Position numbers and translations under genes: made by a program. The notes under the pieces are model-generated. The model made no database searches. It saw only the letters and a program-made list of their open reading frames with translations, and had not been told where the DNA came from. This document shows positions 10,766 through 18,552 of a stretch of DNA of 64,000 nucleotides, piece by piece. Within the stretch, counting starts at the first letter, position 1, and every line of letters begins with the position of its first letter. The DNA lies in contig JAFWMO010000003.1 of assembly GCA_017510705.1 (NCBI GenBank), forward strand, positions 1 to 64,000, given 5' to 3'. The DNA comes from Candidatus Saccharimonadota bacterium. GTDB lineage: Bacteria > Patescibacteriota > Saccharimonadia > Saccharimonadales > Saccharimonadaceae.

Positions 10766-11872
10766 ATGTCTAAAACAATCGAGACGGATTTAAGAACTTT
10801 CGTAAAATTTTGGTTGGTGCCGGTAGGTATTTTGGCGGTAGTATTCTTTTTATACAAGGCGCTGACTGGCCTAGTGATTATTGGTATTTCTATTTTCCTC
10901 GCACTTGCACTCAAGCCTTTGGTGCGTGCAGTAAATAATTTCTTTGTAAAGCATTTTGGGACAGAGAAGAAGCACCAAAAGCTATCTGCTGTCTTGGCAT
11001 ATCTCATCGTAGTCTTGGTGATCGGTGGTATTGTACTAACTATTGGTCCAGTGGTGGTAAATGAAACCTCTAAGTTTGTCCAGCAGTTGCCACAAACGAT
11101 TCAAGATAGTTTTGGCGGGTGGGATGGTATTAATAACTTTGGCAAGTCTATTGGTATAGAAAATCTGCAAGGCGAAATCTCTAATGCACTAAGCAATTTG
11201 TCACACACAATACTCGGCAATTTTGGCGCAGATTTTGTGGCAAGCGTGAGTGGCATTGCTGATGTAGTAATGAAAATTGTTTTGGTGATAGTATTGACTT
11301 TCTTGTTCTTATTAGAGGGCCCGGCAATGCTAGAAACTTGGTGGCACAGCCTTAGTGCTGGCGAGGAAAACAAAAAGCCAGTGCAAGTTGCTAAAAAGGT
11401 AGTATCCAAGATGGCAAACGTGGTGTCTACGTATGTATCGCGCCAAGTAATCGTGGCGGTAATTGATGGCACCGCGTCGGGGCTAATTGTATTTCTATTG
11501 TCACTTATATTCAAATTCTCACCGAGTCTTGCGGTACCAATGGGCATGACCACAATGATATTCTATATGATTCCAATGTTTGGGCAATTTATCGGTGGGA
11601 CATTGGTGACACTAGTGCTAGCAGTTTCTAGCCCAATTGCCGCAATCATCTTTGCAATAGTATATATAATATATGCGCAAATAGAGAACAATGTGATTTC
11701 GCCAAAGATTCAAGGTGACGCTTTGAATTTGCCAGCAGTAATGATACTTTGCGCAATTGTAATCGGTATGTACATGTTTGGTATCCTTGGTGCAATTATC
11801 GCTATTCCAATTGCTGGTTGCGTCCGTGTACTTATAGACGAATACCCAGAAATTAGAGCGGCCCGCAAATAG
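10766..11872 (+). CDS. AI-2E family (PF01594) membrane protein
   Basis: A 368-residue multi-pass inner-membrane protein of the AI-2E transporter/PerM-like family. About eight hydrophobic segments are visible: two near residues 15-55, one near 75-95, one near 165-185, and a C-terminal cluster from residue 230 onward. The charged loop around residues 95-160 is typical of the family. Substrates vary widely (quorum signals, sodium/proton exchange), so no substrate is assigned. AAGGAGG precedes the ATG. It starts a run of membrane genes continuing to 16480. Confidence 0.85.
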   Translation: MSKTIETDLRTFVKFWLVPVGILAVVFFLYKALTGLVIIGISIFLALALKPLVRAVNNFFVKHFGTEKKHQKLSAVLAYLIVVLVIGGIVLTIGPVVVNETSKFVQQLPQTIQDSFGGWDGINNFGKSIGIENLQGEISNALSNLSHTILGNFGADFVASVSGIADVVMKIVLVIVLTFLFLLEGPAMLETWWHSLSAGEENKKPVQVAKKVVSKMANVVSTYVSRQVIVAVIDGTASGLIVFLLSLIFKFSPSLAVPMGMTTMIFYMIPMFGQFIGGTLVTLVLAVSSPIAAIIFAIVYIIYAQIENNVISPKIQGDALNLPAVMILCAIVIGMYMFGILGAIIAIPIAGCVRVLIDEYPEIRAARK

Positions 11873-16708: not shown

Positions 16709-18307
16709 CTATTTGGCGATGCAACGGACAGAGCTTCCGTTGCCGCGCCTGCCGCTACTCCGTGGTAAGATACTTTCAGTCGTCATGTAGATAAAACGCA
16801 CGGTATAATCATCGACGCGTGTGGATGACCAAAAGTAGCCGAGGGATCCCCTACCATGCACTGAACCAACGTCGTTGCCACTAGTATAACCAGAAAGCGG
16901 AAAGCGTCCAGCATTTCGGAAATTAGTATAGGCTGGGTTGCCATTAAAACTACTGGCGTTGCCAGTGATGGCTTTGGCTAGATTCGAATATTCACCTGCG
17001 CCAGAGTTAGTGCCAGATACGGAAGTGTCGATGGCCCCACCAGTAGGCATACGCCAATTGGACGGGCAAATGTCTTCGTCGGCGTCTATGGCGGAATCCG
17101 GATTATCATAGCTGATGCCGTAACTGGTGTCGTTACCATAGCAATATGCTCCGGCAGAAGCGGTGCAGAAATTATATAATATACCATTTTTCCATCCGCC
17201 GGCTTGGCTTAAGGTATCACTCGGCACCATATCTTTGTTATCTATAGTAATGTGCGGAACGGAATAATTGAGGTTTTTGTTTAGCACCACTCCCGCCGTC
17301 GCATACTTCCCATCTGGATCGGTGTTTGGATCTCTGGAGTTAATGCCAAATAAGTAAGTAAGTGAAGTATAGGAAGCATTGGTTTTGGTGTTGGTTTCGT
17401 CTAGCATAGTAGACTGGACATTGGAATCGGTAAGGTCTAGGGCTAGATTGTCTAGTAGCCAACACTTGCCATCCATCAGTTTACCTACATGGTAGATACT
17501 ATTGTCTCTAATGTCTATAAGCTGGGTAGTGATAGCATCACTACCACTAGGATCTAATGGTGTAGTAACACTGCTGCATATACTACTGGACATATCCTGC
17601 ATTTTGTAGAAACCATTAAGTCTAGTAATAGAAGGGTCACTAGCTGCTGCAGAGCTAAAAGCATCTTCAAAGGTAACAGGAGCAGCATTGGCTACAATAC
17701 TAAAGTTGATGGTATTAGTGTATTCACCTGGGTCTATACTATCACTAGCTTTGGCGGCGATACGGAAGTTTAGATTTAAGAGCGTAGCTATGGATGTAGA
17801 GAAGATAGGGCTAGAAGTGGTGGTAAGGCCATTATAATGAGACCAAGCTCCAGGATCACCGGTCTTAGCTACGCTGGTACCATTACCAGTAAAAGTACTA
17901 GCTTTAATACTATATCCCCATGTATTGTCTAAGGTGAGTACATCTAAGTCTGCATCATCATCTATACTAGTGAACTTATTATTAGTACCAACACCCGTGA
18001 GGTCTGAAGTATTACTGTTTGTAGAGGCAGATACAATATAGCCGGTGGGGTTATTGCTTTCTATGCTTAGTATTACTGTATTACTAGTCCTAGTAGCTCC
18101 AGGAGTAATATCATGAATATAAATATCATTACTAGATAGTGTAGCAGAAAGAGATTGGTTTAGCGTGAAGTTGATGTTTACATTAGTACTAGCAGATGCT
18201 TCTGCTCTAGCCTCATTAATATACACACTACTACATAACGTAGGAAAAAGTAGTAGTGTGCATATTGATAGGGCTAGTTTCTTATACTTTACATCTACTA
18301 GAAGCAT
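16709..18307 (-). CDS. Secreted FISUMP-domain surface protein
   Basis: A 532-residue exported protein. A signal peptide covers about residues 1-35 with a likely cut after ARA. Residues about 36-210 are a Ser/Thr/Asn-rich beta domain. Residues about 235-532 are a Fibrobacter-succinogenes-major-paralogue (FISUMP) domain with a C-type-lectin-like core: DGKCWLLDNLALD, CPSNWRMPTGG, GYFWSST and the terminal SVRCIAK. Such domains are typical binding proteins and frequent targets of diversity-generating retroelements. GAGGT precedes the ATG. Its stop codon touches cassette 1, so the two variable-type ends lie tail to tail. It is expressed from a promoter at 18524-18552 with a structured leader. Confidence 0.85.
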   Translation of the reverse strand: MLLVDVKYKKLALSICTLLLFPTLCSSVYINEARAEASASTNVNINFTLNQSLSATLSSNDIYIHDITPGATRTSNTVILSIESNNPTGYIVSASTNSNTSDLTGVGTNNKFTSIDDDADLDVLTLDNTWGYSIKASTFTGNGTSVAKTGDPGAWSHYNGLTTTSSPIFSTSIATLLNLNFRIAAKASDSIDPGEYTNTINFSIVANAAPVTFEDAFSSAAASDPSITRLNGFYKMQDMSSSICSSVTTPLDPSGSDAITTQLIDIRDNSIYHVGKLMDGKCWLLDNLALDLTDSNVQSTMLDETNTKTNASYTSLTYLFGINSRDPNTDPDGKYATAGVVLNKNLNYSVPHITIDNKDMVPSDTLSQAGGWKNGILYNFCTASAGAYCYGNDTSYGISYDNPDSAIDADEDICPSNWRMPTGGAIDTSVSGTNSGAGEYSNLAKAITGNASSFNGNPAYTNFRNAGRFPLSGYTSGNDVGSVHGRGSLGYFWSSTRVDDYTVRFIYMTTESILPRSSGRRGNGSSVRCIAK

Positions 18308-18373
18308 TGATTTACCTCGCTTAGATTTAGTCTCCTAGACGGCACCTTTTGCTTTGGCTTCTAGCATCATAAC

Positions 18374-18395
18374 AAAAATGGCACCGCAAGGGTGC
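18374..18395 (-). terminator. Possible attenuator in the FISUMP leader
   Basis: On the minus strand, GCACC and GGTGC pair around a 5-nt loop and a T-run follows. The 5' arm overlaps the closing arm of the long leader hairpin, so the two structures exclude each other. Confidence 0.4.
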
Positions 18396-18522
18396 AACAC
18401 ATTAACTATTCAACAAAGCCTGCCAAGTAATCAATGGACCTTGTGGTGCCATTTATAAATTACTTGGTTTATTCATAATAGAAAATAGCCTTGTTGATTT
18501 GATAATTAATGTGTTGCACTTT
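18389..18522 (-). promoter_or_regulatory. Long hairpin in the FISUMP 5' leader
   Basis: About 134 bases fold into one long hairpin. A perfect 14-bp closing stem (18392-18405 with 18506-18519) is followed by stems at 18410-18421/18487-18497, 18423-18431/18459-18467 and 18433-18440/18445-18453, with one asymmetric bulge at 18468-18486. Minus-strand transcription is predicted to begin at its edge. It could be a regulatory leader, a separate small RNA or a fold-back element. No known RNA family is recognised. Confidence 0.55.
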
Positions 18523-18523
18523 C

Positions 18524-18552
18524 ATTATAACAACAAAAATAAAAACAAGCAA
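18524..18552 (-). promoter_or_regulatory. Promoter of the FISUMP surface-protein gene
   Basis: Read on the minus strand, TTGCTT (18547-18552) and TATAAT (18524-18529) are spaced by 17 bp. The start would fall near 18517, at the outer stem of the leader hairpin. Confidence 0.65.

Follow-up and report, generated by a model that had tools for sequence, protein, structure and literature searches.

A gene for a FISUMP surface protein, in the 64,000-nucleotide stretch of Candidatus Saccharimonadota DNA which was analysed here (the window), is preceded by a segment which raises a question: is this the leader of an attenuated gene, in which a long hairpin and a terminator exclude each other, as a preliminary description of the sequence proposed, or does it have another role? 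The genome of the window (G000) has about 0.66 Mb. The named records related to it are MAGs of Candidatus Saccharibacteria, and many of these come from goat, sheep and cattle gut.

The locus in the window

The pieces named in the preliminary description are all present on the minus strand: a promoter (-35 TTGCTT at 18552-18547, a 17 nt spacer and -10 TATAAT at 18529-18524), a long hairpin spanning 18518-18393, whose closing stem TGCAACACATTAA/TTAATGTGTTGCA is perfect over 14 bp including the outer G-C pair, and GCACC/GGTGC followed by CATTTTT, the last base of which is 18374. The features of the locus, all on the minus strand, are the following.

18547..18552, minus strand: -35 hexamer TTGCTT, 17 nt upstream of the -10
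18524..18529, minus strand: -10 hexamer TATAAT, read from the sequence; the form in nearly all relatives is the extended TGnTATAAT
18502..18518, minus strand: 5' arm of the closing stem P1, with the putative transcription start at its first bases
18393..18409, minus strand: 3' arm of P1, from covariation with the 5' arm
18487..18497, minus strand: 5' arm of P2 in the predicted fold, partner 18420-18410
18410..18420, minus strand: 3' arm of P2 in the predicted fold
18468..18486, minus strand: 5' strand of a predicted U-rich asymmetric bulge or side hairpin, with U-runs in relatives
18458..18467, minus strand: 5' arm of P3 in the predicted fold, partner 18432-18423
18423..18432, minus strand: 3' arm of P3 in the predicted fold
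18439..18452, minus strand: L, conserved apical-loop motif ATGGCACCACAAGG, reverse complement of T with 13 of 14 pairs in the window copy
18378..18391, minus strand: T, CCTTGCGGTGCCAT, loop and 3' arm of the terminator hairpin and, by comparative pairing, partner of L
18381..18395, minus strand: terminator hairpin GCACC-CTTGC-GGTGC, which rivals L:T for T, and P1 by about 3 nt
18374..18378, minus strand: U-run, read from the sequence and retained in relatives
18357..18366, minus strand: TGCTAGAAGC, complementary to 18305-18296 (the first codons), with which it may form a hairpin at the start region of the read-through mRNA
18296..18305, minus strand: GCTTCTAGTA, partner of TGCTAGAAGC by 10 bp of complementarity, overlapping the start codon
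16709..18307, minus strand: surface protein gene, 532 aa, with C-terminal Fib_succ_major (FISUMP) and N-terminal signal/anchor

The segment 18520-18357 folds at -60.1 kcal/mol, against -33.1 +/- 3.4 kcal/mol in dinucleotide shuffles (z -7.9), and the segment 18518-18374 has a z of -7.1 against shuffles. The element sits between two divergent gene starts, and a terminator scan of the region returned a single site, namely GCACC/GGTGC with its U-run.

A family of putative leaders in the Saccharimonadales

We found that the locus is one copy of a family of predicted structured RNAs which extends across the order Saccharimonadales. Searches of relatives with blastn gave short conserved pieces repeated many times per genome, and the 20 places found in this way which we inspected have the same architecture, with a signal-anchored protein gene downstream and with stem sequences that are wholly different. 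A pattern made from two conserved pieces matched in 28 of the 174 genomes of the genus, with at most 20 copies per genome; the reversed control pattern had no matches in the same 174 genomes, and the two-piece pattern itself had none in other genera of the order (156 sampled). We then used two covariance models, R1, in which only the pairs of the closing stem P1 are given, and R2, which is broader. R1 found copies in 69 of the 174 genomes of the home genus, where the copy number reaches 20 or more per genome, and weaker copies in 10 of the 61 genera of the family, and R2 matched in 26 of 148 sampled genera of the order, families beyond the home family included; the filters were stricter on large samples, so that these distribution counts are lower bounds. 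A sample of the phylum gave no matches outside the home family.

We located the 5' arm of the closing stem blind, as the best complement of the 3' arm. Over 13 positions in 117 copies, 1486 of 1521 cells are paired (98%), against 1138 +/- 19 of 1521 once the 3' arms are swapped among copies within a genome, and up to six standard pair types occur per position. Taken over its 17 pairs, P1 has 97% of its cells paired, with changes on both sides at 15 of the 17; in 40 sequences from several genera such changes occur at 12 of 14 pairs. The preliminary description had made its case depend on the conservation of the stems in related strains, and about 120 copies do keep the closing stem, with compensatory changes. 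The covariation of P2 and P3 was not counted because MAFFT could not align the inner helices, and P3 is drawn from folds of single sequences.

In nearly every copy an extended -10 (TGnTATAATnnnn; TGnTATAAT) ends 4-5 nt before the 5' arm of P1. This fixed spacing means that the transcript would start at the base of the hairpin.

The second copy which R1 found in the window genome (locus L287, G000 contig C18:56828-56960, minus strand) precedes a paralogue (MKRRLALSICTLLLFPTLCSSVYINEARA...) of the FISUMP protein of the window. Its loop/terminator pair, AATCGGCACCGTGC / GCACGGTGTCGATT, differs on both sides from that of the window, AATGGCACCACAAGG / CCTTGCGGTGCCATT, and the pairing is kept. Two FISUMP-type genes of this genome therefore have the leader. 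The link to FISUMP made in the preliminary description, which suggested a search for homologous leaders before other FISUMP genes, thus holds in part; the leaders of relatives stand before genes for other signal-anchored surface proteins as well. Wherever enough DNA is available, the leader lies nearly always in sense, 40-300 nt upstream of a gene, which in the home genus typically encodes a secreted or anchored surface protein of 400-800 aa. Among 10 such downstream proteins of the home genus, Fib_succ_major was recognized in 7 (E<0.01, most of them below the Pfam cut-off) and a Listeria-Bacteroides repeat in 1; 2 were without Pfam match. Single copies in other genera precede, among others, genes for small membrane proteins, a T4SS-pilin-like protein and a type III restriction-modification-like methylase, types which were judged by eye from the translations. 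This variety shows that the leader class is not tied to FISUMP as such.

Five pattern matches (L221, L225, L234, L249 and L268) are in contigs binned as Clostridia/Oscillospiraceae, from rabbit gut MAGs; at L221 and L225 the leader stands before a FISUMP-type gene, and a serine recombinase adjoins the leader of L221. These bins reflect either misbinning or horizontal transfer. In L285 (IMGVR_UViG_3300029305_004784, 11000-11600, minus strand) a copy and its surface gene adjoin tyrosine-recombinase-, terminase-, portal- and capsid-like genes and a tRNA-like sequence, so that either a prophage is integrated beside the leader copy or the surface gene is carried by the prophage; a search of a phage database gave short chance matches only. 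L326 (G136:C5:26753-26878) has lost the U-run (CCATTTGC) and kept P1 and L:T, with an rpsL-like gene downstream, and may be a decaying copy. Many contigs of G012, G072, G005 and other drafts end about 100-400 bp 3' of a leader copy; near-identical N-terminal sequence in the paralogous surface genes is the probable cause, and draft genomes are hence likely to undercount the surface-gene family.

Predicted pairing of the apical loop with the terminator strand

L, the conserved apical loop (AUGGCACCxxAAGG), and T, the 3' segment just before the U-run (CCUUGCGGUGCCAU), are reverse complements of each other. RNAalifold, applied to the first 15 copies, predicted of its own accord a helix of 15 bp which joins the apical loop to the strand preceding the U-run. 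Among 121 copies, all 14 positions form standard pairs in 92 and 13 of 14 do so in 26, and the variable positions 9, 11 and 12 covary (GC/AU/UA/CG). When T was shuffled among copies of the same genome, the observed pairing was reached in 0 of 2000 trials, although such permutation tests leave in the relatedness among paralogues. L thus fits the T of its own copy better than the T's of sibling copies, which argues for action in cis.

The pairing is also found in more distant sequences. In the set of 40 sequences drawn from several genera, 8 of the 14 pairs of L:T have changed on both sides; alignment column 81, for instance, is CG in 17, UA in 15, GC in 5 and AU in 2. The complementarity of L and T is above all 200 shuffles in 68 of 70 copies found with R1, a model which is without L:T pairs but carries the consensus letters of L and T and therefore favours similar sequences. 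Compensated variants off the consensus include GGTACC/GGTACC, AGGCG/CGCCT, TCGG/CCGA and GGGC/GCCC. For P1 and L:T together, 46 copies gave 97.3% of paired cells against 80.4% when shuffled, and a covariation of 0.507 against 0.176; in slid registers the pairing stays below 49% throughout. By this comparative evidence, the covarying partner of the terminator is the tip of the hairpin and not its closing arm. Hence, of the mutually exclusive folds which had been proposed, the competition stands and the main competitor does not: the closing arm overlaps the terminator stem by only about 3 nt (GCA), and the partner which had been missed is the apical loop (18452-18439 against 18391-18378, 14 covarying pairs).

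The short T hairpin, formed by the end of P1 and T (GCACC/GGUGC type), has a median of -7.5 kcal/mol and reaches -4 kcal/mol or better in about 95% of copies; we therefore mostly rejected the idea that it is not conserved at all. The L:T duplex is much stronger (median -27.6 kcal/mol), and it is intact in the 10 or so copies whose T hairpin is weak or displaced. The two bases which flank the hairpin motif, before CACC and after GGUG, change in concert, a covariation which is confounded by clade. At least 4 U follow T in 66 of the 70 copies found with the covariance model. Since the T hairpin and L:T are both retained, T would have at least two exclusive uses.

The hairpin has 39 pairs on average between base and loop. 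A straight helix of this length would hold L far from T, so that pairing in cis needs either a bend at the U-rich junction or an opening of P1/P2. Of 121 copies, 103 have at least four consecutive U between P1 and L, where shuffles would give about 31%, and the bulge suggests such a bend, in which case the shape of the hairpin may be the regulated quantity. A fixed fold-back geometry, in which the outer helix equals the inner helix plus 14 bp, was not supported: the correlation between outer and inner lengths is -0.61, where a positive one was predicted.

A segment D, which repeats L, follows at 4-70 nt beyond the U-run in most copies of the genus, and it matches the T of its own copy better than those of its siblings; in the window copy no D is significant. 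Pairing of the sequence after the terminator with the Shine-Dalgarno/start region occurs in some subfamilies (p<=0.05 for 35 of 107), and for the pairing of TGCTAGAAGC with GCTTCTAGTA in the window, over 10 bp, 0 of 200 shuffles were as good. Overall the start-region pairing is not copy-specific (97 of 2000 shuffles) and it is absent in many copies; we count it as a secondary feature.

In the window, AAAGGTGCCGT (18349-18342), 3' of the U-run, could pair with L (AUGGCACC) and would be a T-like second strand near the Shine-Dalgarno sequence; alone it is not significant. The palindrome TTGTAAAAAATACAA, with at most 2 differences, lies no more than 110 nt ahead of the start in 13 of 121 copies (in G012, 5 of 9) and is found in G012, G009, G023 and others (L035, L036, L038, L040, L045, L052); a shared repressor or activator site is possible.

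Possible function and comparison with known RNAs

A promoter stands directly upstream with its predicted start within the leader; a GC-rich hairpin and a U-run precede the gene (the hairpin being weak or displaced in about 10 copies); and an alternative structure with evolutionary support, L:T, excludes the terminator. With surface genes downstream, these features support in kind the attenuator-like leader of the preliminary description. As far as sequences allow us to judge, there is an even chance that the element is a cis-acting leader in which L and the short terminator hairpin compete for T and so decide on read-through into the surface gene. The promoter would start transcription at the base of a hairpin of about 38 bp (P1-P3 with the U-rich kink), and T would be the switch strand. 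With T folded on itself (GCACC/GGUGC), polymerase would stop at the U-run and an RNA of about 145 nt would be released; with T captured by L, the terminator would be broken and polymerase would read into the surface-protein gene. With some 38 bp between L and T, the outcome should be set by bending of the hairpin at the U-rich kink or by its opening, and there a protein, a ligand, temperature or a growth signal could act. In the read-through mRNA of most copies D could then take over T, and in some subfamilies the post-terminator segment could pair with the ribosome-binding/start region.

Against this cis model, so long and stiff a hairpin seems unable to bring L to T unless it is bent, the outer and inner helix lengths correlate negatively, and the terminator reading is not universal, given the copies whose T hairpin is weak or out of place. 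The L:T helix likewise extends to the U-run and might act as the terminator itself, in which case the polarity would be the opposite one. L:T would then be the real, pseudoknotted terminator stem, L would turn the gene off, and read-through would follow where L does not reach T. The helix has at least 14 bp, is strong and directly abuts the U-run, and the same 10 or so copies keep it, with the U-run, in spite of their poor T hairpin; however, a separate GC-rich T hairpin has been retained in most copies, and its flanking bases (before CACC and after GGUG) covary, if with the confounding by clade, and a stem assembled from a distant loop would be an unusual design for a terminator, so we hold this reading to be unlikely. 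It is unlikely that control is post-transcriptional, with T pairing with L or D, thereby governing a hairpin which masks the start codon and hence translation, and with the U-run being secondary. The presence of D in most copies of the genus, with its best match to its own T, and a start-region pairing above chance agree with such control, but the window copy is without significant D, the start-region pairing is neither copy-specific nor present in many copies, and the U-run is strongly retained.

Release of a stable RNA of about 145 nt is also what an independent small RNA gene with its own promoter and terminator would give, and the many copies within one genome share nearly interchangeable L and T, through which such an RNA might act in trans on the T of other leaders or on other mRNAs. 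We consider this distinctly improbable: nearly every copy stands in sense 40-300 nt before a gene, the match of L and T is copy-specific, and no conserved separate target was found. Promiscuous pairing in trans as the main mode is likewise disfavoured by the better fit of L to its own T. A role at the level of DNA, as a mobile element or as an attC-like or other recombination site for surface-gene cassettes, would account for the many copies per genome, the contig breaks near them, the hairpin repeats, the surface-gene family downstream and the copy beside prophage genes. It is nonetheless highly improbable, as promoter spacing and gene orientation are constant, the contig breaks fall in shared N-terminal gene sequence, and the stems vary yet keep their pairing, G-U pairs included, which together with the interleaved L:T pairing points to a selected RNA; a repeat or MITE was rejected on the same constancy of orientation and spacing and on the covarying stems. 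Finally, some intergenic hairpins are terminators and the scan finds a terminator-like site here, but we give almost no credence to a plain terminator or a chance hairpin without regulatory role for an element which lies between two divergent gene starts, folds with a z of -7 to -8 and belongs to a covarying family in many genomes. The fold z-scores and the covariation led us to reject chance.

The cis-acting leader can be extended by an idea which we regard as doubtful: the geometry of the long hairpin would act as a ruler deciding whether the tip has access to its own terminator and breaks it, up to 20 or more such switches per genome of the gut genus would choose which surface proteins are displayed, and, as the L and T of different copies could nearly replace each other, one terminated leader might also work in trans on another. 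If this were true, an episymbiont would have coordinated or mutually exclusive expression of its surface genes. Saccharibacteria live on the surface of other bacteria, and it is their host-contact proteins whose control is at issue here. That one conserved RNA stands before 10-20 or more surface-protein genes of a genome suggests a layer of regulation common to this repertoire, and the pairing of a loop with its own terminator is an unusual design for a leader. Built synthetically, it could serve for inducible or off-type control where genetic tools are few; riboswitches have been named as promising for expression control in such bacteria (PMC11665869).

The Rfam 15 covariance models, at gathering thresholds, yielded only tRNAs in the window and 38 further loci, without relevant matches below threshold, and a literature search of incomplete coverage turned up no account of an RNA of this kind from Saccharibacteria or Patescibacteria. 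Like 6S RNA, the leader would be a long interrupted hairpin (145-180 nt); unlike it, the leader is multi-copy and gene-linked and has a loop complementary to its own terminator, and the 6S RNA model had no match in the window and the 38 loci. The T-box motif is UGGNACCGCG, and T-boxes have a conserved UGGN which pairs with the NCCA end of tRNA. The L of the home genus, which reads UGGCACCG(C/U), resembles it and, as in T-boxes (RF00230), is complementary to terminator sequence. Here, however, L is in a hairpin loop, and its UGG, present in 120 of 121 home-genus copies found by regular expression, is replaced by CGG, GGG or AGG in 39 of 70 copies found with the covariance model, with compensation in T. 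As UGG is not conserved and Rfam has no T-box match in the window and the 38 loci, we rejected a T-box; moreover, a transcript starting at P1, as predicted, would leave no room upstream for a Stem I with its specifier loop.

In the repZ leader of ColIb-P9, a strand which otherwise belongs to another gene-controlling structure is bound in cis by the loop of a hairpin lying 5' of it, and the leader described here is alike in this pairing of a 5' hairpin loop in cis. The repZ system differs in that it concerns a plasmid replication gene, involves an antisense RNA, is translational and has no terminator, and its sequence is unrelated. With attenuating leaders and riboswitches the element shares a promoter-proximal position, a terminator with U-run, an alternative pairing of the terminator strand and a gene directly downstream. 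It differs from both in that the strand which competes comes from the tip loop of a very long hairpin and is interleaved with the stem as a pseudoknot, in having no aptamer-like conserved core beyond L, T and the U-rich bulge, and in showing no obvious leader peptide. The RNA family appears to be new and to function like terminator-based leader switches.
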